A stretch of DNA of 64,000 bases from Candidatus Methylacidiphilales bacterium (lineage in GTDB: Bacteria; Verrucomicrobiota; Verrucomicrobiia; Methylacidiphilales; JANWVL01). The DNA is taken from contig JANWVL010000141.1 of NCBI GenBank assembly GCA_025056655.1, positions 1 through 64,000 on the forward strand, read 5' to 3'. This document shows positions 11,016 through 21,963 of the stretch, in pieces (position 1 is the stretch's first letter; every line of letters begins with the position of its first letter). A program made the position numbers and the translations under genes. Below the pieces are notes generated by a model. The model saw only the letters and a list, made by a program, of their open reading frames with translations. It was not told the DNA's origin and did not search any database.

Positions 11016-11696
11016 CTAACGCACAGGCTGAGCACGTCGCACCTCTTCTTCAGCCCTTTGCTGAGTCTCCTCACGAATTCTTCCTCGATTCAATAAATCT
11101 CTGACTTCTCCTAGAGTGAGCGGTCGATCAGGAAATTCTCCCGTCATCGAAAATGCATCGTTAATCCTCTCCAAGTCCCGTTGAATTAAGGCGAGCTCTT
11201 TACCTTGATAGGCTTTGAGCGGCAGCGATCGGTCAAAGCCTCTAGCTTTGCGGTCACTTTCAGATGTCAACTGCCGCTCAGACCAAGGATGCTCGCTTTT
11301 TTCATCACGGAAACGAGCTTTCCAACGCACATCCTCATAAAAACTATCATTCCAATGATGATTCCGTGTTCGAAATACAGCCTCAGAATCGAAGCCACGT
11401 GCTCGCCTTGAGCTTTGCAAAAAGGACTTCGAGAAACCTCCCTCTACTTCAGTTTTTTTCCATGATCGCTGCCACCACGGGCGACTATCTTTGCTTCGAG
11501 CTAAATCGGAAGGGGAGAGAATTCGAGCTCTGTATTCATCACGCTTTCGAATACCTGATTGTTTCTCTTGAATGGCTTCAATTCTCTCATCCTCAGGTGC
11601 TTTTTTCTTCTGGCCCCCAAACGAAAACCATCCCATTGCTCCAGAAGTTCCTCCTGCCCAAAAAATAAGAAGCAGAAGATAAAGAAATAGCCTCAT
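11016..11696 (-). CDS. Secreted, highly charged protein of unknown function
   Basis: 226 residues. A signal peptide is clear (MRLFLYLLLLIFWAGGTSGA, cleavage near residue 20). The mature part is unusually rich in Arg, Lys, Glu and aromatic residues, with a WW pair around 74, repeated ARGFD segments (about 98 and 152), and a helical C-terminus beginning near LALIQRDLERINDAF that contains GEVRDLLNRGRI. I recognise no family. It sits between the ACT protein and fabH in the same direction, with 47 and 95 base gaps. Likely periplasmic or envelope-associated. Confidence 0.65.
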   Translation of the reverse strand: MRLFLYLLLLIFWAGGTSGAMGWFSFGGQKKKAPEDERIEAIQEKQSGIRKRDEYRARILSPSDLARSKDSRPWWQRSWKKTEVEGGFSKSFLQSSRRARGFDSEAVFRTRNHHWNDSFYEDVRWKARFRDEKSEHPWSERQLTSESDRKARGFDRSLPLKAYQGKELALIQRDLERINDAFSMTGEFPDRPLTLGEVRDLLNRGRIREETQQRAEEEVRRAQPVR

Positions 11697-12831: not shown

Positions 12832-14958
12832 TCAAGCAATCGCCTTGAGAAGAGGTATGCTCCCTTCCAGTTTAGTCAAGTAAGCTTTCAGCTTTGGATA
12901 ACGACCGAGCTCAGGATCCTCATGAATTACCGACTCAGCTTGTTCACGCGCCCGCTCAAGCAGATGAAGATCATGGAGAGGATCTCCTATCGCCAGTGGT
13001 GGAAGACCACTCTGCTCCGTGCCTAGCACATTCCCAGGACCACGGATCTTCAAGTCTTCCTCTGCTACACGAAAGCCATCATGAGTTTCCTCAAGTATCT
13101 TCAAGCGCCGCCATCCCTCTACCTGAGCGGGATCGCCGATCAGCACACAATAAGACTTTTGATTTTTTCCACGGCCAACACGCCCACGTAACTGGTGAAG
13201 TTGAGCGAGCCCAAAACGTTCAGCATTTTCGATTACCATCATGGTAGCTTGCGGAACGTCTACCCCGACTTCGATTACTGTCGTGGAAACCAACACATGC
13301 GTGCGTCCTTCCCGAAAGGATTGCATGACTTGTTGTTTCTCCTCCGCAGACAATCTCCCATGCATGAGATCAACCTTATACGGTGAAAGGATTCGTCTTA
13401 ATTCCTCCACTTGAGATTGGACTGCCTTTGCCTCGAGCTTTTCGGATTCCTCCACTAGAGGATATACGACGTAAGCCTGGTGCCCCTTCTCAAGCTCTTT
13501 CTTCATAAAGCTCCATACCTTTGGCAAATCCTCTTCACAACGGACCGCGGTGATCACTTTTCCCCTGCCTGGAGGTAATTCGTCTAAAATCGAAACTTCC
13601 AAATCACCATATACGGTCATCGCTAATGTGCGAGGAATAGGAGTAGCAGACATGACAAGCACATCCGCCTGTGAACCCTTATTAATCAAAGCTAGTCGCT
13701 GCATAACCCCGAATTTATGCTGCTCATCGATCACAATCATTCCGAGATTTGAAGCATCGTAGCTCTCATAGAGCAGCGCATGTGTGCCCACGACTATATG
13801 ACCGTGCTCCCCGTATAAATTTTTAAGAAGGTCATCCGTGTCTAGCGGTGATTGATGATAAATCTTTTTTGATCCAGTGAGCAATCCGACCGAGATTCCA
13901 AGTGGCTCAAGCCAGCCACGTAGATTGTAGTAATGTTGCTCAGCCAAAATTTCCGTCGGAGCCATCAACGCTGCATTTTCTCCACGTTCTACTGCGAGAA
14001 TCATCGCAGCTGTAGCGACTATTGTTTTCCCCGCACCGACATCCCCCTGAAGCAGCCGATGCATTGGGGAAGGACGCGAAAGTCCCTCTTGAATTTCCTG
14101 TATCGCTCGAGACTGTGCTCGAGTCAGTGGAAAACCTAAATTTTTCAAAAACAAGTCGAGAAATCTTTTTTTCACAGGCGGACGATGACGCGGAATCGCC
14201 AACCGAGCAGCCTTACGTTTGGCAACTAGACACTGCAAATAGAAAAACTCGTCGTAAACCAATCGCCGACGCGCCTCACGGGCTTCCTCTAGGCTTCGTG
14301 GGAAATGCACGCGCGACAAGGCCTCACTAAGACTGAGCATGTCCGTAGGTGGCGGGTATATTTCATCCACACTAATCCTCGCGGATGGTGAATCTGAACG
14401 CATGAGTTGTATCAGATCCCATATAGCGCGGCGCATGCCTCGCTGGCCGATACCCTCAGTCAATCTATAAATCGGTGTCCAGCGATCTATGTGAATATGC
14501 TCCTCGTCTCCTGCAGAAAGGACTTCATAATCTGGATGGATCATCACCCAACTCTGTTTTCCCATCTTTAAACGTCCATAGACGATAACTTCCTTCCCCT
14601 GCGTTAGAATCTTTGCCAGGTATGGCATGTGAAACCACATGCATCGAAGCACATTTTTGCGATCCAAAACGGCTTTTTGAGCAATCCATATTTCAAAAAC
14701 TTCTCGTCCCCCTTTCCATCTCATCAGGCGTGCCGAGCTAATCCGGCCTCGATAAGTCAACGCCTCTCCTTCCTCTGCTTCGGACAAAGATTTCCATTGT
14801 GTGCGATCCTCGTATCGAACGGGAAGATGCAACAAAAGATCACGAGGTGTCTCAAAGCCCATTTTCTTGAGAGCTCGAATTTGTGCCCGCGGAAGACGTA
14901 AGACACGCTCCAGTTCTAGCTCCTCTGGGCATTCGAGAGAGTTCAGTTTTATGGGCAT
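12832..14958 (-). CDS. recG: RecG, ATP-dependent branched-DNA helicase
   Basis: 708 residues from the ATG at 14958. The frame stays open 35 codons further upstream inside the preceding gene, but that extension is not RecG-like. The ATG overlaps the end of the upstream dehydrogenase gene by 10 bases. N-terminal wedge/OB domain (about 1-200), Walker A GDVGAGKT at 305-312, DEQH box at 411-414, MSATPIPRTLAMTVYGDLE, and the terminal motif VI region RGRVGRG. RecG remodels stalled replication forks and Holliday junctions. Translational coupling with the upstream gene is likely from the overlap. Confidence 0.95.
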   Translation of the reverse strand: MPIKLNSLECPEELELERVLRLPRAQIRALKKMGFETPRDLLLHLPVRYEDRTQWKSLSEAEEGEALTYRGRISSARLMRWKGGREVFEIWIAQKAVLDRKNVLRCMWFHMPYLAKILTQGKEVIVYGRLKMGKQSWVMIHPDYEVLSAGDEEHIHIDRWTPIYRLTEGIGQRGMRRAIWDLIQLMRSDSPSARISVDEIYPPPTDMLSLSEALSRVHFPRSLEEAREARRRLVYDEFFYLQCLVAKRKAARLAIPRHRPPVKKRFLDLFLKNLGFPLTRAQSRAIQEIQEGLSRPSPMHRLLQGDVGAGKTIVATAAMILAVERGENAALMAPTEILAEQHYYNLRGWLEPLGISVGLLTGSKKIYHQSPLDTDDLLKNLYGEHGHIVVGTHALLYESYDASNLGMIVIDEQHKFGVMQRLALINKGSQADVLVMSATPIPRTLAMTVYGDLEVSILDELPPGRGKVITAVRCEEDLPKVWSFMKKELEKGHQAYVVYPLVEESEKLEAKAVQSQVEELRRILSPYKVDLMHGRLSAEEKQQVMQSFREGRTHVLVSTTVIEVGVDVPQATMMVIENAERFGLAQLHQLRGRVGRGKNQKSYCVLIGDPAQVEGWRRLKILEETHDGFRVAEEDLKIRGPGNVLGTEQSGLPPLAIGDPLHDLHLLERAREQAESVIHEDPELGRYPKLKAYLTKLEGSIPLLKAIA

Positions 14959-16373
14959 TGAGCAGCGATTTCCTCTGCTGGATAAGTCCAGATTTCGGCT
15001 AGCGTCGGATGATAATGGGGCATGGCAGCGAGATCTTTTGCTGTTGCGCCGAAATAAATGCACGGCACAATTTCATGAATCAAGTCCGACGCCATAGGCC
15101 CCACAGCTGACGCGCCCAAGATACGTCCAGTGCCTTTCTCTGCGAGTATTTTCACAATCCCGTATTCTGCCCCATGAATGATTGACTTTCCATGATCATT
15201 AAAGGGATAAGTGGCTTTAAGGTAAGGCACTCTATTTTGTATAAGGTCTCGTTCTCTAAATCCCACTCGCGCAAGCTCGGGTGAAGTGAAAATAACAGCC
15301 ATACTCAAAGATTTCCACGGCATGCTAGCTCTCTCACTTTCTCCAAGCGCAACAGCTACAGCATTTGACCCAGCAATTTCACCAGCACGAACTGCGACAT
15401 GGACAACCCTCTCTTCCCCTGTTACATCGCCTGCGGCAAATATGTGGCTCTGGTTTGTTTGTTGATGCGCATTGACGAGCACTCGACCGCCTTTCATCTC
15501 GATAGATGCGGCTTCTAGGTTGAGTCCACTTATTGCAGGTTGCCGTCCCAGACCATGAAAAATTTCCTCCGCGATTAATTCTCGTCGCGCGTTCTGGTGT
15601 TCAAAGGTCACCCTCTTACCATTAGGAGTATTTTCGATCGAGATAAGCTCTACTCCCTTGCATACCTTGATTCCATCAGCCTGTAGAGCTGCTTCTAACT
15701 CCGCTGCTATGTCCACATCAAAGTCACGAGCAATTTGATCGCTCCGTTGAAGCAAGGTCACTTCAGTCCCCAGCTCATGATAAAATTGGGCAAATTCAAG
15801 CGCCACGGCTCCTCCTCCGAGGACGATTAGAGATTGCGGAATGTGAGAGCGTTCCAACGCTGCATCACTCGTGAGAGGATCTGCCTCACGTAATCCTGGA
15901 ATCGAAGGCCAATGAATTTCTGAACCAGTCGCAATAACAAACGCCTTAGCTTGTAATCGGCTTATGCCATCCGTGCTCTCGACTTGAAGTTGATGTGAAT
16001 TAATGAATGAAGCTTTTCCTCGGATGAAGGTAAATACTCCTTGTGTAAGTTGATGGATACGATGCTCCGCAAAGCCACGTATAAGGTCATCTTTTCTTTT
16101 CCAGATTCTATCGGCATTTGGTGATGCTGAAGGATTTAGCAGTCCAAATTTCTCCGCTTCACGAATGGCCCGGTAGCGATGACTGCTTTCAAGGAGTGCT
16201 TTAGTGGGCATACAGCCTCGCAAAATGCATAATCCGCCCAGTTGCGAAGCTCCTTCTATTAAAGCAACACGGCCTTTAGGGTTGACCCCACGTTTTGTGA
16301 ATTCTGACACAGCAGTGCGAGCCGCGGCGTATCCCGCGCTGCCCCCGCCAATAATGATGACGTCTAAGTCCAT
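14949..16373 (-). CDS. Dihydrolipoamide dehydrogenase-like pyridine nucleotide-disulphide oxidoreductase
   Basis: 474 residues from ATG 16373, 2 bases after the helicase stop; an in-frame ATG at 16397 would add eight residues and overlap the helicase. FAD-binding GGGSAGYAAA at the N-terminus, the redox-active pair Cys49/Cys54 in LCILRGCMPTKALL, the NAD(P) Rossmann motif VLGGGAVALEFAQFY, and the C-terminal catalytic His455/Glu460 in HYHPTLAE. These match the Lpd/mercuric reductase-type family. No 2-oxoacid dehydrogenase E1/E2 genes are nearby, so whether it serves a classical complex is unknown. The gap between helix and first FAD strand includes an extra FTKRGVNPKG loop. Confidence 0.88.
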   Translation of the reverse strand: MDLDVIIIGGGSAGYAAARTAVSEFTKRGVNPKGRVALIEGASQLGGLCILRGCMPTKALLESSHRYRAIREAEKFGLLNPSASPNADRIWKRKDDLIRGFAEHRIHQLTQGVFTFIRGKASFINSHQLQVESTDGISRLQAKAFVIATGSEIHWPSIPGLREADPLTSDAALERSHIPQSLIVLGGGAVALEFAQFYHELGTEVTLLQRSDQIARDFDVDIAAELEAALQADGIKVCKGVELISIENTPNGKRVTFEHQNARRELIAEEIFHGLGRQPAISGLNLEAASIEMKGGRVLVNAHQQTNQSHIFAAGDVTGEERVVHVAVRAGEIAGSNAVAVALGESERASMPWKSLSMAVIFTSPELARVGFRERDLIQNRVPYLKATYPFNDHGKSIIHGAEYGIVKILAEKGTGRILGASAVGPMASDLIHEIVPCIYFGATAKDLAAMPHYHPTLAEIWTYPAEEIAAQCP

Positions 16374-16375
16374 AA

Positions 16376-18367
16376 TTACATTCTTACCGACCGCCATACG
16401 TGACTGACAATTCGCTTTTGTGATGAGGTTAATGGAGGAAGGGATGGAATCGTTCTAATTTCGTGCGAATCAAGATATTGATTCACCCATTGTTTTAGGG
16501 CTTGCCAACGCTTGTTTTCAAAAGTTGGCGCATGGCGAATTTGCCTCAGAAGGCTGTGCCATTCAGTAATAAGCCGATCCACATCGCCCCGACCAAGATT
16601 TTCTTGTTTGAAAGTGGGGGTCATTTTTCGACCTGTGAGCATTTCTTCAATGTATTCGGCAGCCCCAACACCGTATTGCCATGGCACTCCCAGCATGAGG
16701 TAGCCTTCAATTGTTATACGACCGTATTTAGATTGGCAGACGGTAGCTAAACGGCCAGTCCATCGAGGTTGACTTTCGCAAAAACGATCGGCAGCAAACA
16801 GGTTACCTAGATCAATGACCAGATGATCGATAGGATACTCCTCTTCTTCGATTGCTGCAGCGATAGCCAAACCTTCAGGGCCGACAAAACAACGCGCGAT
16901 TCGTCCGCGAAACGTCAATCGTAGATCATAATCAATCAATCCAATCCGCTGCCATTGCCAGACCATTGTAGGTTCATTCGATGTCGCCTCGCATTCTTCA
17001 CGTAAATAACAGTGCTTACAGCCGGAGAAACGCCGATATCTCCGGCGAACGAGTCGCGCACGTCCTGTATCTGTGAACTGTCCACACGGAAACGCATCAC
17101 GACTTCGATTCGCTAAATTCTCAAGTCCCAACCTCGGTGGAGTGGTGTTGAATAAAGAGGCAGCTTGCTGATACAATTTATTGATATCTAGCCGTTCATG
17201 AGGAAAAGCCTTCTGAAGGAATAGATGCCAAGGAAGCAGGGGAGAACGCCGCAAGGATTGCTCACGCGCTTGACTCATTTTAGCCGAATAGCGCGTGGCT
17301 AGCACGTAGCCTCGCTCATCTAATCCGCGTCGCCCAGCTCTCCCCATCATTTGGAGCAAGCCGTGAGGCGGAATTTCACGGTCTATGCCATCTACTTTGT
17401 AGAATGTATTGGTGATAAGGACTGACCGCAGTGAGAAGTTTATCCCAGAGCTTAGACCTAGTGTAGCCACGACGGCTCGGAGTTGTCCCGCTTTCGCCAG
17501 AGGCTCGATCACTCCAGCTCGCTGAGCGTAGCTCAACCCACTGTGGTGACACCCGATTCGCGCTTTGATCCAGAAACGAAGCTGCTCCGACAGAAGCGCA
17601 TCTTGTTCCTGTGTTAATTCCAAAGGCACTGCTGGCGGCAGACGTGTGGCTAATTGTTGCGCAAGTTTTTCAGCTTCCTTGCGATGGGGCACAAAAATGA
17701 GAACTGGGCCGAGATCTTCGCGAAGTGCACCTGCGACGACTCGTGTCCAAAATCCTTGAATTTCTTTCGGAACAGATGCAGCGAGCGCCTCTCCATCGAT
17801 TTCTTCAAGCGGAACAGGACGGTTCGTATGTCGCACGATTACTGACTCTCTACCGATTTTTTTAAGCCAGTTGGCGATTTCGGTGAGATTTCCAACAGAT
17901 CCACTCATGAGGAGAAGTTGTGTTGTGATGGGGAGCTCTATGACAACGGCCTCGTAGTGGTGGCCGCGATAAGGATCACTGATCCATTGATATTCATCGA
18001 TGACGAGAAGATCGGCTTGGAGTTCTCCTGTGATCAAGCCCATGACAGCTTCCAAGGTCGCCACAATCACAGGTGCATTCGTATTGAGACTGATGTCTCC
18101 CGTCATAATCCCAACTGGCCAGCCTTTGGTTTTCCATTCTAAAAACTTATCGTTAGCAAGAGCCCGTGTCGGCACGGTGTAGATGGCGCGTTTTCTGAAT
18201 TTGTGGGCTTCGACGACCTTTTCAAAGACTAACGTTTTCCCCGCACCAGTAGGTGCTGAGAGAATCACATTTCTGCCATCTAGCAAATATTGAATGGCTT
18301 GCTGTTGCCAAACGTCTGGAATGACGATCTGGGCTAACGTCTGAGATAGATCGTGGAAATGGCTCAA
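16376..18367 (-). CDS. Ski2-like superfamily 2 helicase with a four-cysteine cluster
   Basis: 663 residues. The start is a TTG at 18367, since no in-frame ATG or GTG lies between the upstream stop and the Q-motif-like IVIPDVWQQQAIQYLLDG. Walker A APTGAGKT (38-45), motif Ib-like VPTRALAND, an unusual DEYQ box at 124-127, motif III MSGSV, and motif VI QMMGRAGRRGLDERGYV (339-355) are typical of Ski2/Hel308 helicases. After the RecA2 domain there are four cysteines: C428, then C450, C453 and C459 in SGCKHCYLREEC, a spacing like iron-sulphur or zinc sites. The C-terminal 150 residues are unfamiliar. It lies 5 bases downstream of the oxidoreductase gene. Role in DNA repair or RNA processing is not settled by the sequence. 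Confidence 0.8.
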   Translation of the reverse strand: MSHFHDLSQTLAQIVIPDVWQQQAIQYLLDGRNVILSAPTGAGKTLVFEKVVEAHKFRKRAIYTVPTRALANDKFLEWKTKGWPVGIMTGDISLNTNAPVIVATLEAVMGLITGELQADLLVIDEYQWISDPYRGHHYEAVVIELPITTQLLLMSGSVGNLTEIANWLKKIGRESVIVRHTNRPVPLEEIDGEALAASVPKEIQGFWTRVVAGALREDLGPVLIFVPHRKEAEKLAQQLATRLPPAVPLELTQEQDALLSEQLRFWIKARIGCHHSGLSYAQRAGVIEPLAKAGQLRAVVATLGLSSGINFSLRSVLITNTFYKVDGIDREIPPHGLLQMMGRAGRRGLDERGYVLATRYSAKMSQAREQSLRRSPLLPWHLFLQKAFPHERLDINKLYQQAASLFNTTPPRLGLENLANRSRDAFPCGQFTDTGRARLVRRRYRRFSGCKHCYLREECEATSNEPTMVWQWQRIGLIDYDLRLTFRGRIARCFVGPEGLAIAAAIEEEEYPIDHLVIDLGNLFAADRFCESQPRWTGRLATVCQSKYGRITIEGYLMLGVPWQYGVGAAEYIEEMLTGRKMTPTFKQENLGRGDVDRLITEWHSLLRQIRHAPTFENKRWQALKQWVNQYLDSHEIRTIPSLPPLTSSQKRIVSHVWRSVRM

Positions 18368-18372
18368 TGCTA

Positions 18373-21300
18373 CTAGGCAACAAGTGTAAGAGAGCTTTTC
18401 TCTATGGAAACCTGTTTATCTCTAGAAGCGATGCGCTGCAGTAGTTCAGCAGCCTGTTTTTTACAGGCCTCCATTTTGGGGTAGCGAACTTCACGATACC
18501 CCGTCGCTTGCTCTGGAAGCCGCAATATTTCAAGCCAGAGTGCGTATTGTTCTTTTTCTAGATTCTGTGCATTGAAGCTTTCTGCAATCTGAAAATACCA
18601 ATCGCGAAAAGCTTTTTCTTTTGCATGCCACTCAGGCAAAAGCTTTCTGAGAAATTTAGCTTCGCGCATAAGTCTTAACATCCAAGGCTGCGTCCGAATG
18701 TGGAATCGAATTTTGAATGAACCAAAAGCGAATTCGGGGCGGTTGAGATGGCGATAGATTACTTTATCGCCCAGTGCGGGATCGATATTGTAGCGCTCTC
18801 GATCGCGCGCGTATTTTTCCTCGGAGGTTAGTAGTTCTGCGACATAGATTTCATCTTTGATAGCCATAACACGGTGCAGATTCCATAGTGCCGCCCGTGT
18901 AGCAGCATAGCCGAATTCTTTTTTATCGCGGCGGTGAATCCGCGTAAGACGATTCAAATAATCTTCTGCATAGGGGATAGATTCGTATCGGATAAGGTCG
19001 TAGATTCGTTGAGCTAAGAGCTTTTTTTCTTCGTCGTTGAGTTCGAGGACGGCATCAGCATGGGCCATGAGTTTCCAATAGCCCTGGGCGATGGCGTTAC
19101 CCCTTTTTGAAGGATAACGTTTTTTGAGAAGCTCGGCGTTTTCATGGATGACCTCTTGATATGTGTGCGAAAGTTTTGGACGCGAATTTTGCGATTCAAT
19201 TACAAGGTATCGTCCGAGGTTGAAGGCGGTGTAGTTTTCGCTTGCGGCTCCGCCCATAGTTTCTCGGATCGCCCACTCGATGGAGGCCAGCGTCAATGGA
19301 AGTTGCCCACGCTGGTATGCGACGCCGAGCATAATGATATTAGCGTAGAGTTTGGTGCCGAAGAGACGTTCTGAGTAGTCAGAGATATCTGCGCTGAAAT
19401 ACTCATCGGCGCGGGTGTAGCGGCGTATGGTCGCTTCTAGTGCCTGAACACAAAAATCATCTTTTCCAAGTAAGGATAATATAGTGGGAGTCTTAGCAGT
19501 GTTAATGATCGCAACAGTGCGAGAAGGAGAGCCGACGCGCTGGTTAACCGACGGATCAAGTCCACGAGCAGCTTCAAGTGCATCCAAGCCAAGAATCAGG
19601 TCCGCTTTTCCATAGGGGATGATGAGTGAAGTGTGGTCGATGTGTTGTTGACGAAAAGTAATTTGGGAGTAAACGCCGCCGTTGCGTATCGCTAAGCCAT
19701 TTTTATCGCTAAAGAGCACGTTGTATCCTTCCCGATGGCCAGCGCGCACCAGGACAGCTGTGGCACTAGCGATGCCCATGCCGCCTACACCGGCAATATA
19801 GACGCTCCAAGAGTCGGTGATTTTTTTGATGGTCGGTTTGGGGAAAGAGGTCGGATCAATTTCGGGAATCCGATTGCGAGGCTTTGCCTGTCGCACGATC
19901 GTCACTTCTTCAAACGAAGGGCAAGCATGAATCTTTGTGCAAGCGGTATCCGCTACGCACCAAGAGAGGTCGGTCTGAATCTTTCTGCCGTAAGGGGTTT
20001 CTAGAAAAGTGAGACCGGGACACCCCGTAGCTTTAGTGCATTCCAGACAGTATTCGCAGACTTCGGGTGTGATGTTGATAACCGTCTTGCGTCGGAGGAA
20101 ACCGTTTTTTTTGATTTCAAGACGCTCTTCACGGCTTCGACGACGATGAAACGTTATGCCACATTCCTTGTCTGCAATGATCACTTTGACGCCGGGCTTG
20201 AGAATCGTGTCTTCGAGGAGTTGCCGATATTGCTCACGAAATGCTGGATTTGTACGAATCACCTCGACTCCGGGGGTTTCGATCATAGCTTGAACGATTT
20301 TCTCTATGTGTTGAACAGGGGTGTGGTTGCCTAGTAGATCGTAATCGAGCTCAGGAGTGGTCTGGTGACCGGTCATCGCGGTCGTTTTGTTGTCGAGGAT
20401 GATGTAGGTGATGTCTTGTCGATTTTTAATTGAGTTGGAAATAGCAACTTGGCCTGAATGGAAAAATGTGGAGTCGCCCATGAAGACGACTTGTTTATTT
20501 GTGATGAAGGGATCGATTCCTGCACCTGTGCCACCGCCCAGACCCATACCGGAGTAGTTATGCATGAGGTCTTTGGTAGGCTCAAACATGAGCATGGTGT
20601 AACAGCCCGTATCACCATGGAAGACGAGATCAATTGGTTCTCTTCGATGCTTCGTGCGCATGTAATTTTCATCGCGAAAGTCCTTTTTCACTTCGACAAG
20701 CACTGAAGCGGTATCGCGATGAGGACAGCCTGCGCAAAAAGTGGGGGTGCGCGCAGCGAGCCGAACATCGAATCGAGACGTCTCCTGAATGAGAGCAAGC
20801 TCGCTGTCTAGGCGATCATGTTTTTCTGGCGGTAAAGCCGGCTTGAGGAGCGGAATAAGTCTTTCTATAACGATGGAAGGATTTAAACCGCGCGATTCAG
20901 GAAACGCTTCAAATGGGGCTGGGAATCTCTTCCCATAGAGAGGAATCGAAATTCGAGCTTGTGAGAGGATAGTAGCGATCTGTTCCTCGATGAAGCCACG
21001 GCGTTCCTCCACGATGATTAACGATTCACAACGGGAAGCGAAGTCTTCGATCAGGTGGGGAGAGATGGGGTAGGTCAAACCAAGTTTCAATACTGGGAAT
21101 TGATCATCGAGGGCGAGTTCGTGCAAAGCGTGATTAAGATATGATGCAGCGAGGCCGGCGCTAATAAAACCGAAGCGGTAGCGTTTGGAAGGTGACTGCG
21201 CCGGTAGGGTAATTTTATTGATGTTGAGCGACTCGCTAATTTCCCAGAGGCGTTGATAGCGTTCGGGAAGGGATTGTTCCCTCCTCCAAGTGCGCGGCGG

Positions 21301-21963
21301 AAGAAGAACCATCTTTTCAAAATCTACTCGCCGTGTATCGAGACATATAGGCTGTTGTGTGTTGATTTTTGAAAAATGATTCCGACGAGTGAGGACTGAT
21401 CCGCCTCCGTCGGCTTGGTTGGTGGTGATGAGATAGCCGATGTAGAGCTCAGCACCGCGGGCCATTTTGAAAGCTAGATCAACCCAATCTTTAATTTCTT
21501 GATTGGTCGAGGGCTCAAGGACAGGCATGTGAAGATGTTTGAATAAGTAACGTGAATCAGCAGGGACTTGTGTGGAATCGCTCCATGGGTCGTCTCCAAC
21601 AACAACAATCGCTCCGCCTTCAGGATGAGAGCCTGCAAGATTTCCTAATGCAAGTGCATCAGACGCTACATGCAAACCTACGGATTTCATGACGGCAACC
21701 GCACGCAAAGCCGCCATTTGCGAGCCGTTGAGCATCGCTGCTGAGAGGGCTTCGTTGTTTGCGATCGTCGCATGTATCCCGTGTGCCTTGAGAAGCTCTG
21801 CAATGTTCTCGACTGTATCGAAGAAACCTGCTACGGGCGAACCTGGATATCCTGTCCAGAGATGAGTGCCTCCCTCTGACTCTAGGAGTCCTTTTACAAG
21901 AAGTTCATTTCCAGTGTAGACTTCGACTCCTTCCTCTTTCAAAAAGCGAGGGTCAATTTTCAT
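18373..21963 (-). CDS. Indolepyruvate:ferredoxin oxidoreductase, fused alpha-beta form with C-terminal extension
   Basis: 1196 residues. Order of domains: pyruvate-flavodoxin oxidoreductase-type N-terminal domain (about 15-260; TGYPGSPVAGFFDT); TPP-binding domain (about 405-600) with CAGCPHRD (410-416), GDTGCYTM and MGDSTFFHSG; a ferredoxin-like segment with Cys636, 639, 642, 648 and 669, 675, 681; the gamma/IorB domain from about 717 (VYIAGVGGMGIASATAVL); and a C-terminal helical region of about 290 residues. The enzyme oxidatively decarboxylates aryl 2-oxoacids to acyl-CoA, passing electrons to ferredoxin. Normally IorA and IorB are separate; the fusion is known in some bacteria. It precedes the helicase by 5 bases. 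ATG start at 21963. Confidence 0.9.
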   Translation of the reverse strand: MKIDPRFLKEEGVEVYTGNELLVKGLLESEGGTHLWTGYPGSPVAGFFDTVENIAELLKAHGIHATIANNEALSAAMLNGSQMAALRAVAVMKSVGLHVASDALALGNLAGSHPEGGAIVVVGDDPWSDSTQVPADSRYLFKHLHMPVLEPSTNQEIKDWVDLAFKMARGAELYIGYLITTNQADGGGSVLTRRNHFSKINTQQPICLDTRRVDFEKMVLLPPRTWRREQSLPERYQRLWEISESLNINKITLPAQSPSKRYRFGFISAGLAASYLNHALHELALDDQFPVLKLGLTYPISPHLIEDFASRCESLIIVEERRGFIEEQIATILSQARISIPLYGKRFPAPFEAFPESRGLNPSIVIERLIPLLKPALPPEKHDRLDSELALIQETSRFDVRLAARTPTFCAGCPHRDTASVLVEVKKDFRDENYMRTKHRREPIDLVFHGDTGCYTMLMFEPTKDLMHNYSGMGLGGGTGAGIDPFITNKQVVFMGDSTFFHSGQVAISNSIKNRQDITYIILDNKTTAMTGHQTTPELDYDLLGNHTPVQHIEKIVQAMIETPGVEVIRTNPAFREQYRQLLEDTILKPGVKVIIADKECGITFHRRRSREERLEIKKNGFLRRKTVINITPEVCEYCLECTKATGCPGLTFLETPYGRKIQTDLSWCVADTACTKIHACPSFEEVTIVRQAKPRNRIPEIDPTSFPKPTIKKITDSWSVYIAGVGGMGIASATAVLVRAGHREGYNVLFSDKNGLAIRNGGVYSQITFRQQHIDHTSLIIPYGKADLILGLDALEAARGLDPSVNQRVGSPSRTVAIINTAKTPTILSLLGKDDFCVQALEATIRRYTRADEYFSADISDYSERLFGTKLYANIIMLGVAYQRGQLPLTLASIEWAIRETMGGAASENYTAFNLGRYLVIESQNSRPKLSHTYQEVIHENAELLKKRYPSKRGNAIAQGYWKLMAHADAVLELNDEEKKLLAQRIYDLIRYESIPYAEDYLNRLTRIHRRDKKEFGYAATRAALWNLHRVMAIKDEIYVAELLTSEEKYARDRERYNIDPALGDKVIYRHLNRPEFAFGSFKIRFHIRTQPWMLRLMREAKFLRKLLPEWHAKEKAFRDWYFQIAESFNAQNLEKEQYALWLEILRLPEQATGYREVRYPKMEACKKQAAELLQRIASRDKQVSIEKSSLTLVA

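Follow-up and report, generated by a model that had tools for sequence, protein, structure and literature searches.

A conserved four-cysteine site, probably a structural metal staple, in Ski2-like helicases of an uncharacterised bacterial subfamily

The eukaryotic Ski2/Mtr4 family is best known from RNA decay, and to our knowledge the Ski2 family has otherwise been linked to DNA repair and RNA decay with no metals involved. Metal-cluster helicases are found in the XPD/DinG group and among the helicase-nucleases. In Rad3/XPD/DinG it is the first motor domain that harbours the inserted cluster domain; the zinc subdomain of RecQ is a four-cysteine site located after RecA2 of an SF2 helicase and has another spacing. 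The spacing C-x2-C-x5-C is that of the iron-staple proteins AddB, Cas4 and Dna2. In AddB/Cas4-type proteins, one distant and three clustered cysteines form a structural 4Fe-4S staple (PMC3466216), and in iron-staple domains the cluster has a structural role, with mutants being insoluble or labile (PMC3466216, PMC7430649). The four-cysteine accessory site of the Rad3/XPD/DinG helicases has been lost in some members, as in CasDinG with its 'vestigial FeS' domain (PMC10450177), and the arch of Mtr4/FRH is known to project from the winged helix (PMC5931499). Here we describe bacterial Ski2-like helicases that form an uncharacterised subfamily, in which, according to the aligned sequences, a four-cysteine site is genuine and well conserved.

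The gene under study is situated in a stretch of 64,000 nucleotides (positions 1 to 64,000 of contig JANWVL010000141.1 from a Candidatus Methylacidiphilales bacterium), which is called the window in the following, and exists as a single copy in the source assembly (GCA_025056655.1). The gene, its motor domains and the C-terminal part are located as follows:

16376-18367, minus strand: Ski2-like helicase gene, 663 aa, beginning with TTG at 18365-18367 and ending with the stop codon at 16376-16378
17798-18322, minus strand: RecA1 domain, approximately residues 16-190, with Walker A APTGAGKT at 38-45 and motif II at 124-127
17987-17998, minus strand: motif II D124-E-Y-Q127, read from the sequence
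17294-17797, minus strand: RecA2 domain, approximately residues 191-358, with motif VI QMMGRAGRRGLD at 339-350
16463-16885, minus strand: C-terminal helical bundle (ratchet-like), approximately residues 495-635, from the AF2 model and Foldseek

The coordinates of the gene agree with the initial annotation, in which no strand was given. The helicase is flanked by two genes on the same strand. Upstream, a fused indolepyruvate:ferredoxin oxidoreductase-like gene (18373-21963, minus strand, 1196 aa, C-terminal DUF6537) stops 5 bases before the TTG, which confirms the distance given in the initial annotation. Its score is well under the NCBIfam cut-offs (494.9 compared to 816), hence it represents a divergent member with uncertain substrate. 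The 3' end of the helicase gene overlaps by 22 bases with the start of a dihydrolipoyl-dehydrogenase/MerA-like flavoprotein gene (14949-16397, minus strand), whose product has a CxxxxC redox motif (LCILRGC) and stays under the cut-offs of both lipoamide dehydrogenase and mercuric reductase. Farther away, a predicted 226-aa protein (11016-11696, minus strand) begins with what looks like a signal sequence, and it has no match in Pfam.

The assignment of the protein as Ski2-like, made initially from the letters, is supported by its core motifs as well as by Pfam and PDB sequence searches. APTGAGKT, DEYQ and QMMGRAGRRGLD are motifs of Ski2-like SF2 proteins, Pfam returned DEAD, DEXQc_Suv3 and Helicase_C, and among PDB sequences the best match was Ski2 (4e-37), followed by Mtr4 (2e-35) and Hel308 (2e-33); these matches, and the one to Brr2, span the motor only. 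The NCBIfam model of Hel308 (NF040935) gave 119.9 bits with a cut-off of 1200, and the curated RecQ-family model 24.7 bits with a cut-off of 219.8, the latter match being confined to the core. For the C-terminal helical bundle no matching Pfam or NCBIfam family was found. The family was studied in a set of 102 distinct Verrucomicrobiota members including the query, which are approximately 40-54% identical to it and were gathered from relatives, the phylum, the order and two families. In the whole set, APTGAGKT/APTGSGKT and QM-x-GRAGRR are universal. The motif DEYQ, already noted as uncommon for Ski2 enzymes, is indeed unusual for them and conserved within the family: it is present in 82 of the 102 members, the remainder having DEYH (19, all of them short four-cysteine proteins) or DEFQ (one), so that DEYQ is typical of the family and not required. 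The protein shares the QMxGRAGRRGLD motif with Ski2/Mtr4 and differs from them in motif II, which is of the DEVH/DEIH type there.

In the samples searched, the family is widespread in one bacterial class. A scan of genome contigs from approximately 85,000 species with exact peptides found three loci, and the named relatives obtained in this way all belong to Verrucomicrobiota; as the scan registers exact matches only, the family may extend beyond this phylum. For comparison, six plasmid or phage helicases were inspected, along with four Ski2-like proteins encoded by genomes of family f8 in the same order; their motif II is at or near DEFH, DEIH, DEAQ, DEGQ or DEVH, and C-x2-C-x5-C was found in none of these ten. 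The f8 genomes (loci L018-L025) are without the DEYQ four-cysteine helicase and have another Ski2-like protein, in which DEIH is present and a metal motif is absent. Viral contigs contained no confirmed relative of the helicase. An origin from phages or plasmids was rejected, as the matches cover mainly the motor with up to about 32% identity and the inspected ones are without C-x2-C-x5-C and DEYQ; an assignment to a defence system was also rejected, as the PADLOC matches, HamB and BrxHI among them, cover the motor core only. A literature search on iron-sulphur or zinc sites in Ski2-like helicases, and on such helicases from Verrucomicrobia, found no description of the family; it had thin coverage of subscription journals, hence an earlier description is possible.

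Structural models were generated by AlphaFold2 with family alignments and searched against the PDB by Foldseek. The mean pLDDT was 82.6 for the window protein, which represents a short form of the family, and 87.0 for L055, a long relative with four cysteines. Over the whole length, the best PDB matches were Mtr4/Ski2 for both forms (1.3e-25 for the short and 8.0e-30 for the long one). The same four-domain Ski2-like layout is shared by archaeal Hel308/Hjm, but their fold match is weaker (2p6r, 3.9e-21 for the short form), the Hel308 family score is the low one mentioned above, and we know of no four-cysteine module in Hel308/Hjm. The features of the region behind RecA2 are:

16898-17290, minus strand: winged-helix region, approximately residues 360-490, from AF2 secondary structure and Foldseek, boundaries approximate
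16979-17140, minus strand: four-cysteine module, approximately residues 410-463, conserved and lost as a unit
17084-17086, minus strand: C428 codon, putative first ligand, present in 78/78 site-bearing members
17018-17020, minus strand: C450 codon, putative second ligand, in site-bearing family members
17009-17011, minus strand: C453 codon, putative third ligand, in site-bearing family members
16991-16993, minus strand: C459 codon, putative fourth ligand, in site-bearing family members

A winged helix and a helical bundle are predicted to follow RecA2 in a ring layout. In the short model, the cysteine module is preceded by two helices (380-387 and 395-404) and followed by a third (468-474), and we read the module as an insertion within the winged helix, between the second and third helices; the stretch around C428 is modelled with lower confidence (pLDDT of approximately 66). 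The initial annotation had placed the site directly behind RecA2, at the position of the winged helix in Hel308/Ski2 proteins. The region was right, and the secondary structure of the model refines the position to the inside of the winged helix. This point of insertion would fit the place where the Mtr4 arch originates, a correspondence at the level of domains that does not imply homology. The best match of the short form is human MTR4 chain 6c90, which is listed as two joined MTR4 segments and is apparently arch-deleted, and that of the long form is yeast Mtr4 with arch (2xgj). However, the arch of Ski2/Mtr4, with its helical stalk and its KOW fist, is absent: the short form has only the compact four-cysteine module, and the long forms have an unrelated insert that is predicted to be mostly beta with a few short helices and no helical stalk. 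A further difference to the eukaryotic Ski2/Mtr4 exosome cofactors is that these helicases are bacterial and have no conserved partner gene nearby.

The four cysteines C428, C450, C453 and C459, described before as a C-x21-C-x2-C-x5-C group, were all confirmed, and the proposed check of their conservation in homologues gave a positive answer. They are invariant in a first alignment of 15 sequences, in which the relatives share 48-54% identity with the query, and 78 of the 102 distinct members keep all four, 24 have lost the site and none is partial; in two close relatives one unrelated cysteine falls into the C450 column. The spacing C-x2-C-x5-C is constant in all 78 site-bearing members, and no other cysteine is invariant across all short homologues. 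Considering that cysteine makes up only approximately 1% of residues in the family, four invariant ones with fixed x2 and x5 spacing are more than chance. The module has the pattern P-C-G-x2-T-D-T-x-R-A-R-x-x-R-R ... C-x2-C-x5-C. Together with the cysteines, the flanking D433, R436, A437 and R438 largely vanish, and the neighbouring motif P-C-G-x2-T/V/I-D-x2-R-A-R goes when they go. In contrast, C544, which is found in 95% of the site-bearing proteins, persists in 77% of the site-less ones and hence is outside the four-cysteine site. As roughly one in four of the sampled members is without it, the site is dispensable for the motor. In one relative (L089/L011, genome G042), an in-frame TGA divides the helicase gene in two, which points to a pseudogene or an assembly error.

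The family comprises three forms. The short form (56 proteins, 647-737 aa in the trimmed set) has the four cysteines with a C1-C2 gap of exactly 21, the long form with the site (22 proteins, 817-915 aa) has a gap of 174-256, and 24 long proteins (774-859 aa) are without the site. In the long site-bearing forms, a separate beta-rich domain is situated between C1 and C2. This conserved domain of some 170 aa, which occupies approximately residues 464-630 in L055 and is shared by other long forms, is predicted to be beta-rich, mostly with high confidence. A sequence search with the insert among PDB chains and Pfam found no match. In a phylogenetic tree, which excluded the module and insert columns, was built by a quick method and contains some long branches, short and long forms split once (SH-aLRT 100%), and three changes are needed to explain the cysteine state. 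In the simplest reading, the four-cysteine site is ancestral, one lineage acquired the domain between C1 and C2, and all four ligands were lost more than once inside this long-form lineage; as the root is not fixed, this direction of change is one that we infer. In one bacterial family (f12), each sampled genome has either the short or the long form and none has both.

The all-or-none occurrence of the cysteines, the fixed C-x2-C-x5-C and a C1-C2 gap of either 21 or 174-256 residues are strong evidence for one metal site, and a variable C1-C2 gap next to a fixed C-x2-C-x5-C is what one would expect if the fold brings C1 together with C2-C4. We estimate a probability of about 75% that the four cysteines bind a single metal centre, which would act as a structural staple in the winged helix, and consider this reading well supported by the comparison of sequences. 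AddB, Cas4, Dna2 and bacterial Bad likewise combine a distant cysteine with a three-cysteine cluster, corresponding to C-xn-C-x2-C-x5-C with n = 21 or 174-256 in the helicases. These iron-staple nucleases also tolerate long sequence between C1 and C2, and the helicase site, too, is read as structural. In contrast to their PD-(D/E)XK domains, the helicase site is located in the winged helix, and a Pfam scan of short and long forms found no nuclease family. With Rad3/XPD/DinG and CasDinG, the subfamily has in common that a four-cysteine accessory site of an SF2 helicase was lost by some members. However, Rad3/XPD/DinG represent another helicase family, and cysteines 428-459 follow motif VI (339-350) instead of being situated between Walker A and motif II. 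RecQ also has a four-cysteine site after RecA2, but with different spacing, and the similarity exists at the level of the core only.

The metal may be an iron-sulphur cluster or zinc, because the spacing matches that of iron-staple nucleases but the nuclease domain is absent, and zinc also occurs in such an arrangement. The evidence somewhat favours a 4Fe-4S cluster, to which we give slightly better than even odds. A tetra-cysteine structural zinc staple, with neither an iron-sulphur cluster nor a redox role, is a serious contender that falls a little short of even odds. Two CxxC knuckles are usual for zinc tetra-cysteine sites, and it speaks against zinc that the site of the helicase has only one, in addition to a C-x5-C that corresponds to iron-staple spacing. 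Nevertheless, all-or-none loss with a visibly undamaged motor is consistent with a structural metal, and exposure to oxygen is likely in the site-bearing genomes, as they have heme-copper oxidase genes. Moreover, the staple arrangement can accommodate zinc, as in E. rectale DUF3799 (PDB 3L0A), where it is present in place of the 4Fe-4S of AddB (PMC3466216).

In the initial annotation, the adjacent iron-sulphur oxidoreductase gene had led to the suggestion of redox sensitivity. A redox-sensitive 4Fe-4S helicase with a functional link to the indolepyruvate:ferredoxin oxidoreductase would agree with the close spacing of the two genes on the same strand in this genome, with the ferredoxin-like cysteines seen in the sequence of the neighbouring enzyme and with a cysteine spacing compatible with 4Fe-4S. 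However, tests of synteny and of genome content gave no support, and we regard this explanation as very improbable. The oxidoreductase, the dihydrolipoyl-dehydrogenase-like gene and recG were found near the helicase in 0 of 23 relatives, and of nine flanking proteins from the window none recurred there, save one ACT-domain gene at one locus. A search for conserved neighbours across the loci retrieved the helicase alone, the other large clusters being antisense shadow ORFs; besides these, neighbourhoods share proteins only within small groups of a few loci. Because of the missing synteny in the 23 relatives, the redox operon was rejected. A link of the site to anaerobic life was rejected as well, since the presence of neither COX1 nor NrdD was associated with it in 73 genomes: COX1-type heme-copper oxidase genes exist in 72 of the 73, including the source genome, and the anaerobic ribonucleotide reductase NrdD in 10/52 genomes with and 8/21 without the site (p = 0.13), i.e. 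the trend is opposite. Finally, it is hardly probable that the cysteines were kept by descent alone or as disulphides with no metal site, which would suit the restriction of all family members found to one phylum, but four cysteines that are invariant at approximately 40-54% identity to the query, fixed in spacing and lost as a set argue against it, and a helicase of the cytoplasm would not be expected to contain disulphides.

Returning to the metal staple, we propose a stand-alone bacterial motor of the Ski2/Mtr4 type, which may form a four-domain ring of RecA1, RecA2, winged helix and helical bundle. C428 on one side and the C450-x2-C453-x5-C459 hairpin on the other would pin the ends of a loop growing out of the winged helix, and the stapled module could shape the entry side for nucleic acids and anchor a substrate- or partner-binding appendage. 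As the protein resembles Ski2/Mtr4 more closely than Hel308, RNA is a more likely substrate than DNA. In the long relatives, the beta-rich domain of approximately 150-230 aa may have emerged between C1 and C2, and several lineages may then have dispensed with the metal. The more far-reaching claim, that this is the first Ski2-like family with a 4Fe-4S staple in the winged helix, which served as the base for a new C1-C2 domain at an arch-like position and whose cluster was later discarded in some lineages, is put forward tentatively, with a probability somewhat below even odds.

If true, the presence of such a conserved metal site would add the Ski2 family to the metal-cluster helicases. Furthermore, the short forms, the long forms with metal and the long forms without metal would provide a natural series for the role of a metal staple in a helicase, and the same series bears on the question how an accessory domain can substitute for such a staple.
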